44,524 nt of DNA. Origin: a virus. The translations under genes and the position numbers were made by a program. The notes under the pieces are model-generated. The model saw only the letters and a program-made list of their open reading frames with translations. It was not told where the DNA came from and searched no databases. Of this stretch, positions 28,370-44,350 are shown one piece after another. Position 1 is the first letter of the stretch. Every line of letters starts with the position of its first letter. Where the stretch lies: IMG/VR virus record IMGVR_UViG_3300036402_000117, positions 1 to 44,524 of that record; one strand, written 5' to 3'.

Positions 28370-31300
28370 ATGGCGCGCACGCAGACCACCGCCCAAGCCA
28401 ACGCCAACGCCGCGCCGCGCCGGAAGGAGTTCACCCGCGTCTTCGTCCAGAATCCGGACGGCGGGATGACCGACGTCTCCGCGTATCTCGTCTCGGCCGA
28501 TCCTGACGCGTCGATCGACCAGCCGATCGCCGGGATGACCATCCGGTTCCGGCGCGACATGGGCCCGACGCTCTCGCTCTCGCCGCTCCGGACGGACTCC
28601 ACCCTCAACCGCAACGCCGCACTCGCCTACGCGCCACTCCTCGACGTCGCCCGCGCGGTGTACGTCGAGGTCGCGCTGCTCGACCCCTCGGTAGCCACCA
28701 CCCCAGCGGCCGGCGACTGGCAGCGGATCTTCCAGGGCACCTTCGACGTGGTCGACCCGGCCGGCGGGGGCGAGGAGGTGATCTGCACCGCGCGTGATCT
28801 GGGTGCGCGTCTGCAGGATACGACGCTCGAGCAGCCTACCGCGGTGGTCGTCGCCGGCGGCGCGACGCTGTCGATGGAAGCGGCGATCCAGCAGGTGCTC
28901 GACACGGCCTTCGGTGCCGGAGTGATCCCGCTCTACACGCCGACGTCGCCGAGCTACACGGTCACGCGGTTCGGCTATCAGCGCGAGCCGGTCTACGACG
29001 CGATCCTGCGCCTGGTGCAATCGATCGGGTGGGACTGCCGGTTCCTCTGGGACTCCGGCACCTCGAGCTATCGCCTGACGCTCTACAATCCGCCGCGCAC
29101 GAAGACGGTCCCCGACCACACCCTGGGGCCGTCGCGGTACATCAGCCTCCGACGACTCTCGATCAGTCGCGCGAGTGTCCGGAACCGCGTGAAGGTCTTC
29201 TACACGAGCCCGACCTTCGCGCGCGGCGACATCACCGTCAACGATACGGCGAGCCAGGCGCGCTACGGCATGCGCCCGATCGTCATCGAGGAGGCCGGCG
29301 ACAGCGTCATCGACACGCCGGCCGAGGCGACGACGATGGCGAACGCGCTCCTCGCCGATCTGAAGGACCCGAAGGCCGACGGCGAGTGCGAGATGCCGTT
29401 CTTCTGGCCGGTGGAGCTCGGGGACCTGATCCGGTTCTCCACCAATGGCGTCCACTTCAACAGCAACCAGGATCTCGCCGTCGTCGGGATCCGGCACTCG
29501 CTGGTGACAGCGCCTGGTCAGATCTCCAAGACGACGCTCACCCTCCGCGGCTCGCCGGCCGGCGGGTATCGCGCCTGGATGGCTCGGGCGGGCGTGGGCA
29601 TCGGGACGGGGCAGACGATCCAGCCGCCCTGGGTGTCGGTCTCCCCGTTCGACCAGAGCCGCGGGAACGAGAACGTGACGCTGAATGGGGGGGCCGCGAG
29701 CAATGCGCCGGCCACGCCGTTCCAGTGGCGGCAGCGCGAGACGGTGAACGGGGTCGTGGGCGCCTGGTCAGGCTACTCCTCTGCGGTGCTCCCCCAGCTC
29801 ATCACCATTCAGCGTGACCCGTACTACCAGAAGTACACCGAGTTTGAGGTGCTGCAGGCGGACGGCCAGAGTACTCCCGTCGTCTGGCCGACGCTGAGCA
29901 AGATTGGCTTCCTCACCGGCCACTCGACTGGCCATGCGATCGGCCAGGTGACGATCGACGACGGCCGCGCCGGCGCCGGTGGGATGCCGACGCCGCGCGG
30001 ACGGCTGGCCACCGATCCGATCTACGACGCGACGGGCGCGACGCCGCTGATCGACCCGGTGACCCGTCGCATCCAGCTCGGGCTGCTCATGCCTGGTGGA
30101 ACGTCACCCGATGTGACCGAGCGGGGTGGGAACAAGGGCGACACAGCCCTCGACTCGGGCAATTCGATCCTCGCAAGCTATGTCGACTTCTCGCGGTCGT
30201 TCCTGAACAAGCATCTGGGGTACGTCCCCGACGATGCGACGTCGGACCGGCGCTCCGCCACGGCGAATGAAAAGACCGGTGGCTCCCGTGGCTTCACGGC
30301 GATCGACTCCGGCGGCGTCGCGATCGCCGCGGCGCTCGACTTCACGCGGAGCTACACGGGCAAGCACTTCGGCAACGTACCCGACGACGCCACCTCTGAC
30401 CGGCGCGCCGCGACCGCGAATGAGAAGACGGGCGGGGGACGCGGGTTCATCGGTTTTGACTCCTCGAGCATCGTCGTCGCGGGCTCGGTCGACTTCGCCC
30501 GGAGCTACACCGGCAAGCACTTCGGCAACGTCCCGGATGATGCGACCTCAGATCGTCGGGCCGCGACGGCAAATGAGAAGACCGGCGGATCGCGTGGGTT
30601 CAGCGCGATCGACTCCGGCGGCGTGGCCGTAGCGGCGGCAGTGGACCTGTCGCGGGGCTACACGAACAAGCACATGGGGTACATCCCTGACGACGCCACC
30701 TCGGATCGCCGGGCCGTCACCCTCGTGCAGAAGAACGCCGCCACGCGTGCCGATGCGGCGCTCGACGGATCGAACAAGTTGCAGACCGGCGTGACCACTG
30801 GCGCGACGGCTGCCGATGGCGTGGCCGGCATCGAGAGCGGAAAGGGCGCTAAAACGAAGGCGGCGCGAGGCGCTGGACACGCCGGCGCCCAGGTCACCAC
30901 CGACAATACCCGAGGTGGAACGGGCGGGCTGCCAACACCGGGCGCGCGTGTGCACTCGGAACCGATCTACGACGCGACGGGCGCGACGCCGCTGATCGAT
31001 CCGGTGAGGCGGGAGATCCTGAGCGGCCTCGGGATCGGAACCGGTGTCCGGAGCGCCTCTGACTTCGCCGTCAAGAATGCGGCCGGGGCCCTCGCCTTCG
31101 GCACCAACCGCCACAATGACGAGAAGGTCGCGACGAACGGGGTCACGAAGACTTTCGATTTCGACTTCGATCACGCCCCGCAGATCCGAGCCATTCCGCA
31201 ATCGTTCCTGCTGCCGGGGACCAATTCCACGGTGGACCGGAAGATCGAGTTCGCCGCGATCGACATCACGGTGAGCTCCTTCAAGGCGCGCTCCGTGTTG

Positions 31301-31798
31301 ACGACCGGCTCATCCAGTGCTGCGCAGACGGATGATTTCTCGGCATCGCAGAACACCACGCCCGGCAGCGCTGGGGGCGTGGCGCTTCAGGCGCCGGGGG
31401 CCGTGGCCTACTGTCAGCTCGCCAGCGCCACGGCGATCTCGACCAACTACACCGGATACTATGACGTCAACACCGTCGACATGGACCCGGCGAACACCGT
31501 CTACGTGGACTTCTACCGCAACGATTCGGCGGGGTCGACGACGTGGACGCTGATCGGGGGAGCCTCGTACGGATCCGGGATCAACACCACTGGCATCCCG
31601 TTCCCCTTCACCGCGGCGCTTGGCGCGAACTGGGACATCCGGATGGTCATCAGCTACGCCTTCACGCCCAGTCCCACCTTTACCCGGGCGACGATCACCG
31701 CCGATCGCGTCGACTACGACGCGGTCACCGGAGGGACGGAGGTGTCGCTTACCCCCGCCGGAACCGGCGTCCTCTACCAAGCCATGGAGGCCCCGTGA
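28370..31798 (+). CDS. Large tail tip or baseplate hub protein with tandem repeats
   Basis: A 1142-aa protein. Residues 1-400 resemble a phage hub/tail tip domain: KEFTRVFVQNPDGGMTDVSAYLV, IFQGTFDVVDPAGGGEEVICTARDLGARLQD, and an IRLVQSIGWDCRFLWDS-like stretch. About residues 585-790 hold four 51-residue repeats, each with KHxGxxPDDATSDRR. Flanking these is a duplicated segment around PIYDATGATPLIDPV. The C-terminal 250 residues are a beta-rich domain (FDFDFDHAPQIRAIPQSF, TGYYDVNTVDMDPANTVYVDF) that may contact the host. Repeats in such proteins often form a stalk and vary between strains. Confidence 0.8.
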   Translation: MARTQTTAQANANAAPRRKEFTRVFVQNPDGGMTDVSAYLVSADPDASIDQPIAGMTIRFRRDMGPTLSLSPLRTDSTLNRNAALAYAPLLDVARAVYVEVALLDPSVATTPAAGDWQRIFQGTFDVVDPAGGGEEVICTARDLGARLQDTTLEQPTAVVVAGGATLSMEAAIQQVLDTAFGAGVIPLYTPTSPSYTVTRFGYQREPVYDAILRLVQSIGWDCRFLWDSGTSSYRLTLYNPPRTKTVPDHTLGPSRYISLRRLSISRASVRNRVKVFYTSPTFARGDITVNDTASQARYGMRPIVIEEAGDSVIDTPAEATTMANALLADLKDPKADGECEMPFFWPVELGDLIRFSTNGVHFNSNQDLAVVGIRHSLVTAPGQISKTTLTLRGSPAGGYRAWMARAGVGIGTGQTIQPPWVSVSPFDQSRGNENVTLNGGAASNAPATPFQWRQRETVNGVVGAWSGYSSAVLPQLITIQRDPYYQKYTEFEVLQADGQSTPVVWPTLSKIGFLTGHSTGHAIGQVTIDDGRAGAGGMPTPRGRLATDPIYDATGATPLIDPVTRRIQLGLLMPGGTSPDVTERGGNKGDTALDSGNSILASYVDFSRSFLNKHLGYVPDDATSDRRSATANEKTGGSRGFTAIDSGGVAIAAALDFTRSYTGKHFGNVPDDATSDRRAATANEKTGGGRGFIGFDSSSIVVAGSVDFARSYTGKHFGNVPDDATSDRRAATANEKTGGSRGFSAIDSGGVAVAAAVDLSRGYTNKHMGYIPDDATSDRRAVTLVQKNAATRADAALDGSNKLQTGVTTGATAADGVAGIESGKGAKTKAARGAGHAGAQVTTDNTRGGTGGLPTPGARVHSEPIYDATGATPLIDPVRREILSGLGIGTGVRSASDFAVKNAAGALAFGTNRHNDEKVATNGVTKTFDFDFDHAPQIRAIPQSFLLPGTNSTVDRKIEFAAIDITVSSFKARSVLTTGSSSAAQTDDFSASQNTTPGSAGGVALQAPGAVAYCQLASATAISTNYTGYYDVNTVDMDPANTVYVDFYRNDSAGSTTWTLIGGASYGSGINTTGIPFPFTAALGANWDIRMVISYAFTPSPTFTRATITADRVDYDAVTGGTEVSLTPAGTGVLYQAMEAP
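30125..30736 (+). repeat. Four tandem 153-bp repeats inside the tail tip gene
   Basis: Units start at 30125, 30278, 30431 and 30584, each coding for 51 aa. The middle two copies are the most alike; the first and last have drifted. All carry PDDATSDRR near the same place. The duplicated segment at 30017-30062 and 30962-31007 matches at 45 of 46 bases and brackets the array. Copy number is likely to vary by slippage or recombination. Confidence 0.9.
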
Positions 31799-32244
31799 AG
31801 ACGCTCGCCGACTTCCCGGCGATCGCCGAGCCGCTACGCCTCCACCGGGACGAACCGTGGGACTCCGCGCGGGTCTGGATGGTGGTGGCCCCCTGCTGCG
31901 GTCGCCGCACAGCGGCCGACACGGTCGTCGACGTGCGCGACGTCTCCGGAACCGTCGTGCGCGCCGGGGGGCACCAGGCGCCGCGAGATCATGCGTGGCT
32001 CTGTGACGGCTGTGTGCACCGGCTCTTCGCCGATCCGCACAACGCCTGGACGCGGTCGACGCTGCTCTCGGCCTGCGGGGCCCCGCCGGAGCGAGTGCGA
32101 GAGCACCATGCGCGGGAGCTGGCGGATGCCGCGGCGCAGGCCGACTTCAAGGCGGGCCGATCACACCGACCGGAGGCAGCGCATGCTGCTGCGCTCGCCT
32201 CCCTGCCGGTGGGCATCGATCCGCACCGGCGGAGGCACCTATGA
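31795..32244 (+). CDS. Hypothetical protein with CC...CxxC site
   Basis: A 149-aa protein from GTG 31795 (GTGA overlap). It has a VVAPCCGRRTAADTVV segment and a CDGCVHR segment that together could bind one zinc. The C-terminal half is helical and rich in His, Arg and Ala. It lies between the tail tip gene and the opposed lipoprotein gene. No family is recognised. Confidence 0.5.
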   Translation: MKTLADFPAIAEPLRLHRDEPWDSARVWMVVAPCCGRRTAADTVVDVRDVSGTVVRAGGHQAPRDHAWLCDGCVHRLFADPHNAWTRSTLLSACGAPPERVREHHARELADAAAQADFKAGRSHRPEAAHAAALASLPVGIDPHRRRHL

Positions 32245-32246
32245 CG

Positions 32247-33044
32247 TCAGGGCGTGAGAGATACTCCAGCAGCGGTCCACTGCTGGAGTTGGCCACTGGC
32301 CGTGAGGTACCGCGCGCGACCGAGCAGAACGTCGTTGGCGCCTTGCAGCTCCACGACGTATCCGGACGACGGGGTGTTGGCGGGCGCGGCGACGATCGTC
32401 CTCGCGGCGACCGTTCCGACCGTGTCGCCCTGCACGACGATACGCCCATCGCTCACGATCCGGAACGGCAAGGCGTTGCCGAACTGGTCGACCACCGAGC
32501 CCGCTGGCATGATCGCGGGGAAGTTGGCGATCGGGATGTTCGAGGTGCGGTAGGTCGGGCTCGCGGCGCCAGGCAGGATCGTGGCCAGCACGCTGTCGGT
32601 GATGACGGTGACCTGATTCACCGTCGCCTTGACCAGCGCCTTCGAGACGCCGGCAATCGAGTCGCTGTGAAAGGTGAACCATGCGATCCCGTCGGCGCCG
32701 GTCGCCGTGCAGAGCACCTCGGGGATGAGAGCGTGCTTCGGGTCCGGCGAGTCGGGGCACGCGACCACGCCAGGGACGCTTACCACGCCCGTCTGGGCGT
32801 AGGCCTTGGGCGGCAGCATCGCGTCGAGGACGCGGAGCGCGACGGAACCGTTCGGCAATCGCACGGCTTGCACGCCGACGTTCTTCGGAAGTCGCGCGCT
32901 GCGGGCGGCAGGCACCGTCTGATTGTTTCCGGCCATGACGCCGACCTTCACCGGCCCATCGGCGATTGGCGCGGCGCTGCCGCTGCCACACGCGGCGGTG
33001 AACACCAGCACCGTACCGAACGCCCTCACCAGATTCGCCTTCAT
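32247..33044 (-). CDS. Exported lipoprotein, likely surface exclusion or conversion factor
   Basis: A 265-aa protein from ATG 33044 with GAGGCGGG just upstream. Residues 1-18 are a signal peptide (KANLVRAFGTVLVFTAA) followed by Cys19-Gly-Ser, a lipobox-like end. After cleavage the chain is beta-rich with Ig-like features: NGSVALRVLDAMLPPKAYA, PGVVACPDSPDPKH, VDQFGNALPFRIVSDGRIVVQGD, and VELQGANDVLLGRARY. It is opposed to the tail genes on both sides, with its stop 3 bases after the previous gene. Phage T5 Llp is a known case of a lipoprotein beside the receptor-binding gene that blocks reinfection. The same role here is inference. Confidence 0.75.
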   Translation of the reverse strand: MKANLVRAFGTVLVFTAACGSGSAAPIADGPVKVGVMAGNNQTVPAARSARLPKNVGVQAVRLPNGSVALRVLDAMLPPKAYAQTGVVSVPGVVACPDSPDPKHALIPEVLCTATGADGIAWFTFHSDSIAGVSKALVKATVNQVTVITDSVLATILPGAASPTYRTSNIPIANFPAIMPAGSVVDQFGNALPFRIVSDGRIVVQGDTVGTVAARTIVAAPANTPSSGYVVELQGANDVLLGRARYLTASGQLQQWTAAGVSLTP

Positions 33045-33171
33045 GTCGTCCCGCCTCGCAGAAAGGGATGGCATGACGATAACGATCGGCTCCGCCACCG
33101 GCCATCCCTGTCACGCCAATGGGCACGTGTTATTAGCGCGCCATGGCCTTCACTCCGCTGAGACGATTCTC

Positions 33172-33438
33172 ATGAACGCACCCGACAAGACCCGTGACCA
33201 ACTGATCGCCGACGAGCGCGCGGCCGAGCGTCGCGTCGTCGAGGCAGAAGTTGCCCAGCGCCTCGCTGAGGCGATCGGCACGCTGGAAGAAGTTGCCGCC
33301 GCCCGCGACGCGGTCGTCACGGCGCGCGCCGAGTCCCTCGCGATCCGGCAGACGATGCAGGAGGGCCTTGCCGCGTGGACGCGGTACGCTGCCTACCTCG
33401 AGGCGGTGGCGCACGCGCACGACGCGCTGGGAGGCTGA
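33172..33438 (+). CDS. Small helical (coiled-coil) protein
   Basis: An 88-aa protein from ATG 33172. Almost all of it is one predicted long helix with heptad-like spacing (DQLIADERAAERRVVEAEVAQRLAEAIGTLEEVAAARDAVV). It precedes the fibre gene by three bases. It may be a trimerising or assembly factor for the fibre, but no family is recognised. Confidence 0.5.
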   Translation: MNAPDKTRDQLIADERAAERRVVEAEVAQRLAEAIGTLEEVAAARDAVVTARAESLAIRQTMQEGLAAWTRYAAYLEAVAHAHDALGG

Positions 33439-33441
33439 CGC

Positions 33442-34794
33442 ATGGCACTCTCTCGATCCTCCGTCCTGCACTACTGGTCCAGCCGGTACGGCCCGCTCCC
33501 GGTCATTGGTGGCAAGCCGGTACACTCGCGCAACTCGGCTGGTTTCGTCGCCGACGGGCGCGGCGAGTGGTACAACGCCATCATCAACACGCCGCGCTTC
33601 GCGACGGAGGTTGACAAGTCGACCCCGGCGAACGAGCGGCGGGCGATGCTTCTCCTGGAAGGCGCCCGACCCAATCAGCTCACGCGCAGTAACGATCTCT
33701 CCCATGCGGCGTGGACGACCGCATCCGGCACGGGCACCGCGTCGCTCAACGCCATCGGGATGGACGGTTCGCCGAACGCCGCGACCACGCTGACCGATAG
33801 CGATGCCGCCGGCTTCTACGGCCGTTATAACTCGGTGACCATCGCCAACGACGGCGACACCCTTGCCGCGCGATTCTGGATTCTCAAGGACAGCAACACC
33901 ACTCGCTTCCCGATCCTCGTCTTCGGCCTGCAGGGTGGCGTGACGCCAAAGACGCAGGACATCATGCTCAACACCTCAACCGGCGCCATCGCGTCCAGCT
34001 CGATCTCCGGGGGCGGCAGTGCCGGGGCGTATGCCGTGTTCGACGATGGATTGTACTGGCAGATCGTAATCCACCTGCAGAATAACGCGACCGGCAATAC
34101 GACCGCGCGCGCGTCGGTGTACCCGGCAGGCGGATCGGTGATGGGCACGGAAGCGGCCGCTTCGACCGGCAGTTGCGTCGTCGGCAACGTACACGTCGAG
34201 CCCAACGCGACAGCAGGCATCACGCGCGGCACGCCGATCTTCACCGCTGCGGGCGCCGCAAGCCGCTCGGCTGACAGCTTCTACTGGAACTTCCCGGCGC
34301 CACCACAGGCGATGATGATCCACTCTCGGCATGTCGAGAGTGGCGGCGATTCGGCACGCCGCATATTCGAGATCAGCAGCGCCACTGAGACCGGCCCGGT
34401 CTTCGCCGCCTTTATCTCCGGCGGTTTCTATGCCATCCAGCACTACAACGGGGTTGGATCGGTCACGCAGACCCTTGGCGCGGCGCCGGCCCTGGGCGAT
34501 ACGGTCGACTTGGCCGCGCTCCTCACGCCGACCGGGCAGGTGCAACTCATTCAGTCGATCAACGGCGCGGCCGTGAGCACCTCCGCGCTATCCGGTGCGC
34601 TCTCTCTCCCGGCCGCGTGGGGAGATACGAAGCTCTGGCTCGGCGCCGTGGGTGCCGTTGCCAGCTCATTCGGGCTGAATCGGCATGCAGAGATTCGCGC
34701 AGTTAAGTACGGCGACGTAGCGGCCGTGACGTCGCAGGGCATCATGGACGAGCTCCGCGGGTTCGAGCTCGGCCCCAACGGAGATCAGCTCTAA
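33442..34794 (+). CDS. Tail fibre or receptor-binding protein
   Basis: A 450-aa protein. It contains LLLEGARPNQLTRSNDLSHAAWT, a motif shared with many phage fibres and carbohydrate-binding tail proteins. Beta-sandwich segments follow (AARFWILKDSNTTRFPILVFGLQGG, YWQIVIHLQNNATGNTTARASVYPAGG) and a later jelly-roll-like SRSADSFYWNFPAPPQAMMIHSRH. It probably decides host binding, together with the tail tip gene. Its end overlaps the next start (TAATG). Confidence 0.7.
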   Translation: MALSRSSVLHYWSSRYGPLPVIGGKPVHSRNSAGFVADGRGEWYNAIINTPRFATEVDKSTPANERRAMLLLEGARPNQLTRSNDLSHAAWTTASGTGTASLNAIGMDGSPNAATTLTDSDAAGFYGRYNSVTIANDGDTLAARFWILKDSNTTRFPILVFGLQGGVTPKTQDIMLNTSTGAIASSSISGGGSAGAYAVFDDGLYWQIVIHLQNNATGNTTARASVYPAGGSVMGTEAAASTGSCVVGNVHVEPNATAGITRGTPIFTAAGAASRSADSFYWNFPAPPQAMMIHSRHVESGGDSARRIFEISSATETGPVFAAFISGGFYAIQHYNGVGSVTQTLGAAPALGDTVDLAALLTPTGQVQLIQSINGAAVSTSALSGALSLPAAWGDTKLWLGAVGAVASSFGLNRHAEIRAVKYGDVAAVTSQGIMDELRGFELGPNGDQL

Positions 34795-35390
34795 TGCACC
34801 GCATCATCCACACGCTCCGGCAGATCGCCGCGGCCGACCTCCCGACCGTTACGTCGCTCGACGGCACCACGCGGACGATGACGGCCGGCGAGCTGCTCAA
34901 CGTCGGGATCGTCCACCTCCACGACGACGTGTACGACTGCGTCGAGCAGCACCGGAGCGACGACGACGAGGCCGCGGCGACCGGCGTGCGGACCTGGGCG
35001 CCGCACGGCGAGCCGCTGCCTGGGACGCCGATCAGCGCCGGCTCGCACCGGGAGCGCTACGCCCGTGTCCCGGCGGAGCATGCGCCCAAGGTGTTCCGAG
35101 CGCAGGTCATCCGCTCCGCTGATCCGGCGGCACCCGCCGCGACGATCGTCACGGCGAACCTCACCGAGGTGGCGACCGCGATCGCGGAGTACGTCGGCGA
35201 CGTCTCCGGCGCGCCGCTCGTCGATCTCTCTGGCCCGGCGGCTGTGCTCAAGGAGGCGCAGCGCCTGGTCCAGATCCCTGACAACGGGATCGACCGACAC
35301 GTCGTTCCGATGGCCACCGTCGACCCCGGCGATGTCGTCGAAGCCGACCGGATCATCCCGCATCGCTGGCACGGGGAGTCCCACCGCTAA
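34794..35390 (+). CDS. Hypothetical protein after the fibre gene
   Basis: A 198-aa protein from ATG 34794. The N-terminal stretch (RIIHTLRQIAAADLPTVTSLDGTTRTMTAGELLNVGIVHLHDDVYD) is mixed helix and strand, and the rest is Ala/Pro/Asp-rich. A tail-fibre assembly or accessory role is only suggested by location. The gene is the last of the tail block. Confidence 0.5.
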   Translation: MHRIIHTLRQIAAADLPTVTSLDGTTRTMTAGELLNVGIVHLHDDVYDCVEQHRSDDDEAAATGVRTWAPHGEPLPGTPISAGSHRERYARVPAEHAPKVFRAQVIRSADPAAPAATIVTANLTEVATAIAEYVGDVSGAPLVDLSGPAAVLKEAQRLVQIPDNGIDRHVVPMATVDPGDVVEADRIIPHRWHGESHR

Positions 35391-35877: not shown

Positions 35878-36170
35878 TCGACCTCCGTCGCCTCCTCGGC
35901 CTCCTTGCCTCGTTCCTCATCGGCCTTGGCCTCATCTGGTACGCCCACGAGCACCTCGAGCGGGAGCTCGCGCGGCCCGAGCGCTCGATGGCCCTGCTCG
36001 CGATCTACGGCGTGATCGGGCTGCTCGGCATGCTGATCGTGCCGACGATCCGTGACCGCGTGATCCCCGCCGCAAAGACCGGCTTCACCCTCGCGAGCCT
36101 GGGCCGCCGCGCGTATGACGGCAAGGCGGTGGTCGACGACGCGCCTCCTTCCAAGGACAGTGCCCCATGA
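35874..36170 (+). CDS. Putative holin
   Basis: A 98-aa protein from ATG 35874 with two membrane helices (LLGLLASFLIGLGLIWYAH, and MALLAIYGVIGLLGMLIVP) and a charged, soluble C-terminus. Size and two-helix plan fit a class II-like holin. It lies immediately upstream of the endolysin. Holins are diverse, so the call rests on topology and position. Confidence 0.6.
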   Translation: MIDLRRLLGLLASFLIGLGLIWYAHEHLERELARPERSMALLAIYGVIGLLGMLIVPTIRDRVIPAAKTGFTLASLGRRAYDGKAVVDDAPPSKDSAP

Positions 36171-36691
36171 TCCCCGCCGAACTGCTTCGGACGGAGTCCT
36201 CGCTCGTCATCAACATCCTGCAGGCCTCGACGGACCTCATCGCGGTCTGCGAGGATCCGCCGGGATCCAACCGCGGCGAGGACATCGACGCCTGGGCGAA
36301 GAAGTTCGGGAGCCCGCCCGGCTCCTACTGGTGCGCGCTCATGCAGGGCGAGATCGCCGATCGTTCGCACTCCTGGCGGCCGACCCACGACGTCGGCAGC
36401 TGTGACGAGTGGTACCTGCAGGGCACGAAGGCGGGCCTCCTGATCATGGACCCGCGGCCTGGAGCGATCGTGCTGTACACGAACGGCACGCGCCTCGAGG
36501 GCGGGCGGTACGACGGCCGCCTCGACGCGACGCACATCGGCCGGGTGATCCGCGCGACGCCGGTGCCGATGGCGATCGAAGGCAATACCACGCTGGGCAA
36601 GTACGACCGGAATGGGTTCGTCTCCACGCTGAAGCAGATCGAGAAAGCGCGAGTGCTCTGCTACCTGGCCCCGGCGCCGAGGGCCGCATGA
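36167..36691 (+). CDS. Endolysin, CHAP/NlpC-P60-like peptidase
   Basis: A 174-aa protein with the Cys-His arrangement of amidohydrolase endolysins: Cys56 in GSYWCALMQGEIAD, then CDEWYLQG, PRPGAIVLY, and His123 in DATHIGRVI followed by EGNTTLG. These enzymes cut peptidoglycan peptide bonds. There is no signal peptide, so it needs the upstream holin to reach the wall. It overlaps both neighbours by 4 bases. Confidence 0.8.
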   Translation: MIPAELLRTESSLVINILQASTDLIAVCEDPPGSNRGEDIDAWAKKFGSPPGSYWCALMQGEIADRSHSWRPTHDVGSCDEWYLQGTKAGLLIMDPRPGAIVLYTNGTRLEGGRYDGRLDATHIGRVIRATPVPMAIEGNTTLGKYDRNGFVSTLKQIEKARVLCYLAPAPRAA

Positions 36692-37215
36692 AGTGGCTCG
36701 CGCAGGTCCCGGGGATCGCCTGGGTGATCGCCGGCGTGCTGATGCTGATCGTCGTCGGCTACTGCGCCGGGGTCCGCGCCGGTGCCGTGAAGGTGCACCG
36801 CGCGGCCCTCGAGGACTCGACCGGCACGCAGCTGGCGGCCGTCGCCACCGCCACGACGAAGAGCGATCGCGTCGTCGCCATCGCGCACCGCGCCCGGGCG
36901 ATCTCTGGATCCGGGCGGGCGAAGCGCGAGCTCGCGCGGCTCGCGGTGGCCGCGGCGTTGGACTCGGCGCCACCGGCGATCGTGCAGCTGGTCCACTCCG
37001 ACGACGCCCTCCTGCGGCAGGACTCGGTCACCATCGCCGTCCAGGCCGCGGCGATCGACACGCTGCTCCTCGAGCGGGCGGCGCGCCAGCAGCTCGACAC
37101 GCTCCGGGCGCACGAGCTCGCGCTCGGGGCGAATGACGCCGGCCGTGCCCTCCCCATCGTCTTCGTGCTCGCGACTGCGACCGCCGTCCTCACCCTGTTG
37201 CACCTGGTCCGATGA
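36688..37215 (+). CDS. Spanin-like protein with membrane helices at both ends
   Basis: A 175-aa protein from ATG 36688. The N-terminus is a clear membrane anchor (VPGIAWVIAGVLMLIVVGYCAG), the centre is Ala-rich helical (RAKRELARLAVAAAL, TLLLERAARQQLDTLRAHE), and the C-terminus is a second hydrophobic helix (LPIVFVLATATAVLTLLHLV). A single-anchor i-spanin (Rz) normally lacks the second helix, and no lipobox for a u-spanin is visible. Position after the endolysin supports an outer-membrane-disruption role, but the topology is unusual. Confidence 0.5.
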   Translation: MKWLAQVPGIAWVIAGVLMLIVVGYCAGVRAGAVKVHRAALEDSTGTQLAAVATATTKSDRVVAIAHRARAISGSGRAKRELARLAVAAALDSAPPAIVQLVHSDDALLRQDSVTIAVQAAAIDTLLLERAARQQLDTLRAHELALGANDAGRALPIVFVLATATAVLTLLHLVR

Positions 37216-38873: not shown

Positions 38874-39350
38874 CTAGCTCAGTGGCTTCCGAATCTGCAG
38901 GCGGCGCAGGTTCCGGAGTGCATGCTGCAGCGCAGTCTCCTGCTCCGGGATGGGGATGAACGGTCGCGACCGCGTCGGGCCCATCAGCACCAGCTCGGCG
39001 AAGAGCTCCGCATCATCCTCCCGCGGATCCGCGCCCCAGTGGGTGTCCATGTTGTAGACGCGCTCCCAGCGGTCGTGCTGCGTATCGTGGTGACACCACA
39101 GATGCCCGAGCTCGTGCGCGCCCAGGTAGAGGTGTCGCCGGCGCGGGGCGCCCGGGCTGAGGAGGATCGCCCACCGGCCGCCGTACGGCACCAGCTGCGC
39201 GGGGCGCGGCATCTCCACCGGCGACTGGCGGATCTTCACCTGCTCGCGCTCGCAGATCCGAGTGAACGCGGGCCACGTGAGGGGACGGGCGAGCTCCGGG
39301 TGCAGGTCGCGCTTGCGGGCGATGACGTCCGCGATCTGCTCCACCTTCAC
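38874..39350 (-). CDS. ImmA/IrrE-family metallopeptidase
   Basis: A 158-aa zinc peptidase. The catalytic motif is HELGH at residues 79-83 (ARRRHLYLGAHELGHLWCHH nearby), and an acidic partner lies in DDAELFAELVLM near 122-133. ImmA-type enzymes cleave the repressor encoded beside them when the host is stressed, and so induce the element. Its start overlaps the repressor gene by 4 bases (ATGA on the - strand), so the two are translationally coupled. The pair resembles ImmR/ImmA of ICEBs1. Confidence 0.85.
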   Translation of the reverse strand: MKVEQIADVIARKRDLHPELARPLTWPAFTRICEREQVKIRQSPVEMPRPAQLVPYGGRWAILLSPGAPRRRHLYLGAHELGHLWCHHDTQHDRWERVYNMDTHWGADPREDDAELFAELVLMGPTRSRPFIPIPEQETALQHALRNLRRLQIRKPLS

Positions 39351-40326: not shown

Positions 40327-40893
40327 ATGGCGCACACGAAAATGACCACCGCGTTCGCGCGCGGCGGTCGACTGACCCCCGCCGAGATGAGTCTCGGTGA
40401 GGAAGCCCGACAGGTCTGGCTCGTCGTGACCAGCAACAAGCTGCTCCGCGAGCTGCTGATGGCGACGCCGGTCAAGCACATCATCTACCGCCTGCGCAAG
40501 GAGAACGAGCGCTCCGATCCCCTCGAGCTGCTCGCGCGCATCATCGTCACCATGGCGGCGGTGGGCTATCCCGAGTCGACCGTCGACCTCCTCATCCTCC
40601 ACCTGCAGGGCGTGAAGGCGCGCTGCTACGTGGGCAACGCCCACCGCTCGCTCGACGAGCTGGACGTCGAGGAGGTGAAGCACGAGGCGCAGGAGAACGA
40701 GCTCGCCATACGCCGCCGCATCGCCGGCGACGCGGTCACGCCCGAACAGCTGCTGGCCGAGGCCCAAGTCAATGAGCTCGAGGCAACGCTCCAGTTCGAG
40801 CGGGCCAAGGAGCTCCGCCGGCGGGCGCGCCAGGCGCCCGGCCGCGTGCTCTCCTTCCGCCGTGAGTTCGCCCGGCCGGGGGTGACGTCGTGA
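40327..40893 (+). CDS. Hypothetical early protein
   Basis: A 188-aa protein from ATG 40327 with GAGGT just upstream. It is mainly helical (LTPAEMSLGEEARQVWLVVTSNK, RIIVTMAAVGYPESTVDLLILHLQGV, VTPEQLLAEAQVNELEATLQF) and ends in a basic RRRARQAPGRVLSFRREF. No family is recognised. Position directly after the Cro-like gene suggests an early regulator or host takeover protein. Confidence 0.55.
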   Translation: MAHTKMTTAFARGGRLTPAEMSLGEEARQVWLVVTSNKLLRELLMATPVKHIIYRLRKENERSDPLELLARIIVTMAAVGYPESTVDLLILHLQGVKARCYVGNAHRSLDELDVEEVKHEAQENELAIRRRIAGDAVTPEQLLAEAQVNELEATLQFERAKELRRRARQAPGRVLSFRREFARPGVTS

Positions 40894-41222
40894 TCCGCGC
40901 GAACTACCTGCCCCTTCCGCGATTCCACGACCGCAAGACCACGACCCTCTCGAGCACGATGGTGAGCGGGTGCTACGTGCGCCACTACTCCATCCGGACG
41001 GGCGTCCGCCAGACCGGCTACGCGCGCGGCGGACCCGAGGGGCCCCTCGGACCGATCATCGGATGGGGCGTGCAGATCGACGACCCGGAGGGGTGCATCG
41101 CCCTGGTTGACGAGACACGCGATCCGGCCTCCGCGCGTGCACTCTACGAGCGGGCGATCTCCGGCAATCCGATCGAGGTTGCCGTCGCCATGCAGTACCC
41201 GCAGCTGCAGGTGACATCATGA
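40890..41222 (+). CDS. Hypothetical early protein
   Basis: A 110-aa protein from GTG 40890 (GTGA overlap). It is Gly/Pro-rich in the middle (GGPEGPLGPIIGWG) with a strand-like start. No motif or family is recognised. Its end overlaps the next start (ATGA). Confidence 0.5.
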   Translation: MIRANYLPLPRFHDRKTTTLSSTMVSGCYVRHYSIRTGVRQTGYARGGPEGPLGPIIGWGVQIDDPEGCIALVDETRDPASARALYERAISGNPIEVAVAMQYPQLQVTS

Positions 41223-42831: not shown

Positions 42832-43112
42832 TGCCGACTCCGGACGCCACCGAGCGCATGGCCCGCATCCGCGCGCGCGCGACTGCGCACGACGAAGCGA
42901 TCGAGTCGGTGAAGTGGCCGACGGCCGCGCAGCTCGCCGCGCGCTGGAATGTCAGCCTGACCACGGTCTACGAGATCCCGCGAGAGCGGCTGCCCTACAA
43001 GGAGTTCGGCGGCGGCCAGAAGCCGCGCCGCCGCTATCGCCCGACCGACGTCGCCGCCTTCGAGGCCGACGACACCGCGTACACCACCGCCAAGCCGGCG
43101 AAGAGCGCCTGA
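42831..43112 (+). CDS. Excisionase-like small HTH protein
   Basis: A 93-aa protein. The HTH is PTAAQLAARWNVSLTTVYEIPRERLPYKEFGGGQKPRRRYRPTDVAAFE, a MerR/Xis-type helix with a wing. Its position directly before the integrase (shared ATG/TGA) is typical of an excisionase that turns integration into excision. The assignment rests on fold and neighbour. Confidence 0.65.
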   Translation: MPTPDATERMARIRARATAHDEAIESVKWPTAAQLAARWNVSLTTVYEIPRERLPYKEFGGGQKPRRRYRPTDVAAFEADDTAYTTAKPAKSA

Positions 43113-44350
43113 TGTACAAGAACTCGGCGACCGGCTATTGGGAGGCGGACATCCGACGCGAGAAGATCGCGCCGCGTCTGCACGTCTCCTACGGCACGAA
43201 GAAGAAAGACGAGGCGGCGCGTCTGCACGCGGCGGTCCTCCGGCTGTTCAAGGAGGGCAACCGGGACGCCATCGATGCGCTCCGCGCGGGGCGTCTGCCG
43301 GTCGGCGAGATCGCGCGGCTCCAGGAGGAGGGGAAGCCCCTTTTCGCGCCGCCCGTCGCTGCCGGCCCGCTGCCCTGGCCGAGCGTGCGCACGGCCGTCG
43401 AGGAGTACCTGGCGTGGCTCGACACCAATCCGCGCAAGACCGCGGGCACGCACCGGTTCGCGAAGACCATGTGCGATCGCTTCGTCAACTGGCTGGGCGA
43501 CGATGCCGAGCTCCCGCTCGACCAGATCCCGACGCGACGCGTGAGCGACTATCAGGCGTCGCTCATCAAGGGCGAGGCCGCGGTCAACACCGTCACCGCG
43601 GCGGTCTGGCGCGTGGGGACGGTGTTCCGCTGGCACCGCGACCGCGAGCTGCGGGAGGCCCAGGAGGAGAAGCGCACGCCGCGGTTCCTGCACGTCCCAC
43701 TGGATCCGGACACGATCTCGACGGCGCGCACCCATCGGACGCGCTATCTCACCGAGGCAGAGGCCGAGCGACTGCTCGCCGCGTGCCCGGGCCGGCTCCT
43801 CTGCCCCGTCGCCATCGGACTCTTCGCCGGGCTCCGGATCGACGAGGTGATGCACCTGCGCCCGGCGTACGACGTCGACCTCACCCTCGGCCTACTGACC
43901 GTCCAGGAGCAGCCGGGCTGGCGCCCGAAGTCGGGGAAGCGGCGCTTCGTGCCGATCGCCGCACCCCTGCGCCTACTCCTCGAGGCGCAGCTCGCGCGCT
44001 ACGCCTCCGAGGAATGGCTCGTACCGTCCTCGGTCGACGCGACGCGGCCGCAGAACCCGAACAGCTTCATGGTGCACTTCCGGCGGATCGTCGAAGACGC
44101 CGAGCTCGTCGCGGGCCGGAAGGACCCGAAGGGCGTCGTTTTCCACACGCTGCGCCATACGTTCGCGAGCTGGCTCGCCACCCGCGGCGTCGACCTGTAC
44201 ACGATCGCCCAGCTGCTCGGCAACTCGCTCAAGCAGGTGGAGCAGACGTACGCGCACCTCTCTCCCGACTTCAAGGCGGCGGCGATCAGCAAGCTGGCCG
44301 GCGTTGTGGCGGTGCCGTCCCTGCCGGATCGGACGGAGGGCGGCGCATGA
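43112..44350 (+). CDS. int: Tyrosine integrase
   Basis: A 412-aa site-specific recombinase. The N-terminal arm-binding and core-binding domains (about 1-205) precede the catalytic domain, with Arg242 (FAGLRIDEV), Lys273 (RPKSGKRR), His345-x-x-Arg348 (HTLRHTF) and Tyr380 (EQTYAHL). At the usual second-His position the protein has Asn371 (LLGNSLKQ), a known substitution. It lies about 75 bases from attR and would recombine attP with the host site at 126-150. Start is ATG 43112, overlapping the excisionase-like stop. Confidence 0.9.
   Translation: MYKNSATGYWEADIRREKIAPRLHVSYGTKKKDEAARLHAAVLRLFKEGNRDAIDALRAGRLPVGEIARLQEEGKPLFAPPVAAGPLPWPSVRTAVEEYLAWLDTNPRKTAGTHRFAKTMCDRFVNWLGDDAELPLDQIPTRRVSDYQASLIKGEAAVNTVTAAVWRVGTVFRWHRDRELREAQEEKRTPRFLHVPLDPDTISTARTHRTRYLTEAEAERLLAACPGRLLCPVAIGLFAGLRIDEVMHLRPAYDVDLTLGLLTVQEQPGWRPKSGKRRFVPIAAPLRLLLEAQLARYASEEWLVPSSVDATRPQNPNSFMVHFRRIVEDAELVAGRKDPKGVVFHTLRHTFASWLATRGVDLYTIAQLLGNSLKQVEQTYAHLSPDFKAAAISKLAGVVAVPSLPDRTEGGA

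Follow-up and report, generated by a model that had tools for sequence, protein, structure and literature searches.

A lipoprotein gene lying opposite to the late genes of a siphovirus-like phage (positions 32247 to 33044, minus strand, 265 residues) was found to travel with an exchangeable adsorption cassette, since little besides one contiguous block is shared between its phage and two others, G001 and G002. The simplest reading of these genomes is that a host-recognition cassette was exchanged between phages and that the opposed lipoprotein is a fixed part of it. The favoured proposal, by analogy with known systems, is a new family of lipoproteins that would exclude superinfecting phages by masking the receptor; we regard it as evenly balanced. 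The strongest support for a role like that of Llp of phage T5 is the conservation of the gene in an adsorption cassette exchanged across different head modules.

The window, that is, the whole stretch of DNA that was analysed, spans an entire IMG/VR virus record, 44,524 bases long. It encodes a TerL, a portal, a ClpP-type protease, an HK97-type capsid protein, a tape measure and tail genes. As a tyrosine integrase is located at 43112 to 44350 (plus strand), the phage is probably temperate. A peptidase M78/IrrE-like ORF (38874 to 39350, minus strand) likely belongs to the lysogeny region alongside this integrase. Motif similarity raised the suspicion of a Gemmatimonadota host, and a diderm host is probable. 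The matches of the major capsid protein and TerL were too distant for naming a host, and the Rfam and tRNA searches gave no match.

Between 13600 and 37300, the lipoprotein gene is the sole minus-strand ORF among the 27 called. Translation from the ATG at 33044 places the lipobox cysteine at residue 19, while the alternative GTG at 33098 gives 283 residues. Codon use was scored with a model trained on five window ORFs. The lipoprotein frame obtained +0.34 bits/codon, equal to the fibre-like gene, which is itself a member of the training set. A long antisense ORF (32241 to 33161, plus strand) was ruled out as the true gene because its score was negative (-0.47 bits/codon). By its codon use, the minus-strand frame is a real gene. 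A perfect 10-bp hairpin with a 7-nt loop (32263 to 32289) falls in the last codons of the gene; it is without a T run and is possibly a two-way terminator. Just 5' of the start, a 12-nt inverted repeat (92%, 28-nt spacer, 33061 to 33112) is a possible operator or a chance occurrence, and the corresponding stretch of G001 contains no such repeat. No sigma-70-like promoter was found for the gene.

Residues 1–19 (32988 to 33044, minus strand) form a predicted signal peptide and lipobox, ending in VFTAAC with glycine at position +2, as judged from the lipobox rule and the alignments. The rule was a PROSITE-like pattern. It was passed by the lipoprotein, with Cys19, and by one other of the 54 called window ORFs, a weak pass at 40890 to 41222. 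When any start was allowed, 5 of the 420 window ORFs of at least 60 residues passed. All three homologues (window, G001 and G002) agreed with the rule. The remainder of the protein comprises a conserved N-terminal domain (residues 32–162, 32559 to 32951, minus strand; 51% to G001, 29% to G002) and a diverged C-terminal part (residues 163–265, 32250 to 32558, minus strand; 22% to G001, 30% to G002). A conserved cysteine pair, Cys96 and Cys112 in the window protein, falls in the N-terminal domain, and its members are 15–16 residues apart in all three proteins (Cys96/112, 104/120 and 95/110). The window and G002 lipoproteins have exactly three cysteines, the anchor and the pair; the G001 protein has three further.

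The preliminary description had assigned Ig-like beta segments to the protein. These were not confirmed: Pfam yielded no hit to the lipoprotein with the threshold relaxed to E 10, and the AlphaFold models were unusable (mean pLDDT 31 and 39). A search against solved structures returned nothing better than E 0.3. Foldseek gave a best E of 0.84, and the hits listed were mostly antibody/Ig or FN3 folds with TM below 0.4; this list was set aside because the AlphaFold model was of low confidence.

On one side of the lipoprotein lies a tail-tip-like gene (28370 to 31798, plus strand), whose N-terminal part matches the tail-protein family phrog_1887 and whose C-terminal part is common to G001 and G002. 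At about 30000 to 30750, the tip protein contains tandem repeats of ~45 residues (YTGKHFGNVPDDATSDRRAATANEKTGG and similar), which recur in the G002 tip. On the other side is a fibre-like protein of 450 residues (33442 to 34794, plus strand); because it had no Pfam or PHROG match, the label "fibre" rests on position and homologues. The shared block ends with a 198-residue protein (34794 to 35390, plus strand), and putative lysis genes were assigned by eye at 36167 to 37215. The preliminary claim of an exported lipoprotein opposed between tip and fibre genes is upheld, with coordinates, codon use, lipobox and strand all in agreement. The tip and fibre-like genes do bracket it, but its immediate neighbours are two intervening genes. 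The first is a convergent, Cys-rich small protein (31795 to 32244, plus strand; APCCGRR ... DHxWLCxxC), conserved directly 3' of the tip gene in all three phages. It has no family match and is possibly a zinc-binding tip accessory or chaperone. The second is a divergent 88-residue ORF (33172 to 33438, plus strand), with a homologue in G002 and none detected in G001.

The homologue set comprises three phages, all metagenomic. G001, a 38,625-base IMG/VR phage, was reached through a search with the fibre-like protein. Its lipoprotein (390 residues, 125 longer than that of the window) is opposed, occupies the identical place and aligns at 44% over 218 residues. G002, a 48,981-base IMG/VR phage, was reached through an alignment of the Cys-rich neighbour. 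Its lipoprotein, also opposed and in the corresponding place, aligns at 28% over 232 residues (E 4e-13) and measures 265 residues from the chosen ATG or 275 from the first. A whole-record search confirmed both homologues (E 1.2e-37 for G001, 1.5e-14 for G002). In G002, the lipoprotein frame scored +0.47 bits/codon against -0.31 for the antisense frame, and the gene was the only opposed call within its 17-kb piece. In G001, one more low-scoring ORF of 71 residues was called on the lipoprotein's strand, inside the tip gene. Given that the homologues are placed and oriented alike in two other phages, the layout is not a matter of chance. Two further ORFs were observed in these genomes: a second small lipoprotein-like ORF on the late strand of G002 (L023:15617-15994, minus; LVLLMACTST...), without a Pfam match, and, in G001, another fibre-like paralogue encoded upstream of its cassette (L018:3739-4896, minus), at 38% over 131 residues to the window fibre.

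All 54 window proteins were compared with G001 and G002 at a threshold of E<=1e-4. Five matched G001, and these were contiguous: the C-terminal part of the tip, the Cys-rich protein, the lipoprotein, the fibre-like protein and, over 95 residues, the 198-residue protein. Seven matched G002, namely the same five, the 88-residue ORF and one 28-residue match elsewhere. The TerL proteins belong to phrog_9 (window), phrog_15 (G001) and phrog_3717/phrog_2 (G002), and the best portal matches were phrog_12, phrog_21 and phrog_2662, respectively. The portals of the window and G002 are distant relatives, since each also matches the other's best family (the window portal phrog_2662, the G002 portal phrog_12). 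The capsid proteins of the window and G001 both match phrog_10, likewise distantly. In their N-terminal parts, the tip proteins are unlike, matching phrog_1887 in the window and phrog_1101 in G002. A further block, outside the cassette and including a 129-residue protein at 59%, is common to G001 and G002, so that the cassette is the main exchange among these three phages without being the only one. The lipoprotein showed the lowest identity of the five cassette proteins in all three phage pairs, at 40, 31 and 34% (window–G001, window–G002 and G001–G002). The values in the same order were 42, 36 and 46% for the tip C-terminus, 49, 39 and 44% for the Cys-rich protein, 51, 40 and 39% for the fibre-like protein, and 49, 47 and 39% for the 198-residue protein.

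Further relatives were sought in several collections. The lipoprotein alone gave no match among viral or genome contigs, an absence that is weak evidence given the few exact seed patterns used. Equally weak, owing to exact-pattern seeding, was the absence of matches in the phage search with the fibre, Cys-rich and 198-residue proteins, the tip C-terminus and the G001 and G002 lipoproteins, and in the plasmid search with the fibre and the G001 lipoprotein. The Cys-rich protein alone against viral contigs and its three-sequence alignment against genome contigs, again with insensitive exact seed patterns, returned none. When the three-sequence fibre alignment was run against viral contigs, G001 and G002 were again the only phages recovered. 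An Enterococcus phage match to the lipoprotein in the phage search (E 0.2) was dismissed as chance, and its best PHROG match had E 0.026. NCBIfam and PADLOC gave no real match for the lipoproteins; an NCBIfam LptM row (E 0.29) is confined to the signal peptide of the G002 protein. Distant fibre-domain matches were seen in four phages (L007–L010); these had no detectable lipoprotein homologue nearby (0/4) and, lacking a homologue of the Cys-rich protein as well, were rejected as cassette relatives. The ORFs listed by a lipobox scan of L008 and L010 were all on the plus strand, and none matched the window lipoprotein. One of them, in L010 (13729-14112), has a lipoprotein-like N-terminus. Among titles and abstract starts of the open-licence literature, no description of a family of this opposed lipoprotein was found.

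Known exclusion lipoproteins lie beside tip, receptor-binding protein or fibre genes in six of six phages (T5, T1, Rtp, N15, HK022 and phi80). The window lipoprotein shares this position and the lipobox signal peptide with the small exclusion lipoproteins Llp and Cor, and an anchor cysteine plus two more is found alike in Llp, Cor, Rtp45 (by alignment) and the window protein. The gene is opposed to or divergent from the recognition gene in three of the six (T5 llp, T1 cor and rtp45) and co-directional with the tip in the cor of N15, HK022 and phi80; orientation is not diagnostic. In contrast, the lipoproteins described here, at 265, 390 and 265 residues (window, G001 and G002), are more than three times longer than Llp and Cor (about 75–78). 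Neither alignment nor profile comparison detected homology to Llp, Cor or Rtp45; in the profile comparison, only the signal peptide aligned, with a probability of 12%. Membership of the Llp/Cor group is not claimed because of this lack of homology.

T5 is a non-temperate phage. Its Llp resembles the window lipoprotein in adjoining the receptor-binding gene, with llp divergent from oad, and differs in its 77 residues against 265 and the lack of alignment. The receptor-binding and llp genes of T5 and BF23 have been exchanged together, as has the lipoprotein with its cassette. In T5-like phages, hrs and llp form a functional module inside which recombination occurs (PMC4728585), and Llp blocks FhuA, acting from the periplasm (PMC9586334). 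The comparison with T5 Llp in the preliminary description fits as to layout (T5, T1 and Rtp opposed) and cassette co-inheritance, and fails as to sequence relation and size. Cor, for which a cassette is described (PMC13164509), likewise lies just after the tail tip region, before the tail fibre gene in N15 and phi80, occurs in temperate phages and is opposed to the tip in T1; its size, its co-directional genes in the other three phages and the absence of homology set it apart. Rtp45 is also encoded just after a J-like tip gene on the opposite strand, and it binds and blocks LptDE, precluding binding of the receptor-binding protein (PMC12685063). It is, however, about 6 kDa, accompanied by rtp44 on its own strand, and not homologous. 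A looser likeness is offered by CwpV of Clostridioides difficile, a surface protein giving phage resistance, described in a paper in which both "superinfection exclusion" and "Ig-like domain" occur as terms; unlike the window lipoprotein, CwpV is a host-encoded, Gram-positive cell wall protein (PMC4737114).

As a masking factor, the lipoprotein would be exported, probably anchored in the outer membrane, and would be a member of the host-recognition module. It would be expressed separately from the opposite strand, either in a lysogen or at an early stage of infection, and would bind or cover the receptor that the tip and fibre proteins encoded next to it use. Adsorption of the same phage or its relatives to the masked cell and its debris would then cease. 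We infer the outer-membrane location, the separate expression, the receptor binding and the exclusion. A real gene with a lipobox, the cysteine pair kept in all three homologues, its same place and orientation in 3/3 phages, its co-inheritance with the adsorption cassette despite differing packaging modules, its divergence, the greatest among the cassette proteins, and the precedents of Llp and Rtp45 speak for masking. The absence of homology to Llp, Cor and Rtp45, the larger size, the lack of a detected promoter, an orientation that is not diagnostic, the distant fibre-domain phages and the small set of three metagenomic instances speak against it.

The main rival is a surface-altering lysogenic-conversion gene, or moron, which would change the host surface (adhesion, stress) with no role in phage adsorption, the late-operon junction merely tolerating insertions. 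This we consider rather unlikely, although the phage is probably temperate with an integrase, the gene ends in a hairpin and runs against the late operon around it, and cor of HK022 carries a moron annotation. A free moron would be expected at other positions or be missing from some phages, whereas the lipoprotein occupies one and the same joint in three phages whose packaging modules differ, and is co-inherited with the recognition genes. An empty site was not seen in relatives; it was occupied in all three phages with the cassette. Alternatively, and improbably, the gene could encode the phage's copy of a lipoprotein from the host surface, one that itself serves as receptor or co-receptor, acting as a decoy or a phage-supplied receptor. 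Its place beside receptor-binding genes and its two-part structure with a diverged C-terminal part would suit such a copy, but genome-contig scans with the lipoprotein or its neighbour, which used insensitive exact patterns, found no cellular homologue. Still less probable is a virion adsorption accessory or a tail-assembly factor needing export or membrane anchoring: co-inheritance with tail genes agrees with it, but the gene lies opposite to the late operon, and a lipobox signal peptide would take the protein out of the cytoplasm, where tails are assembled. An outer-membrane spanin or other lysis lipoprotein, conceivable for a phage lipoprotein in an inferred diderm host, is highly improbable, as o-spanins are small proteins whose genes overlap that of the i-spanin or come after it, while these proteins have 265–390 residues, are opposed and are separated from the putative lysis genes by the fibre-like gene.

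Returning to receptor masking, a more specific and doubtful version is a mobile cassette that carries its own cognate mask. The large two-part lipoprotein would extend outward from the outer membrane and cover the receptor externally or along its length, in contrast to Llp, a small periplasmic plug. Its N-terminal domain is conserved; its C-terminal part, exchangeable and fast-changing on this view, would set which receptor is masked.

Judged from its sequence, the lipoprotein is without named relatives and is a new kind of exported lipoprotein. If it is an exclusion factor, receptor-binding genes and a matching self-exclusion gene would move as one unit between unrelated phages, beyond the coliphages, and the diverged part of the lipoprotein would point to the receptor. 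The arrangement would then also provide a genomic signature for exclusion genes in uncultured phages, where sequence recognises none.
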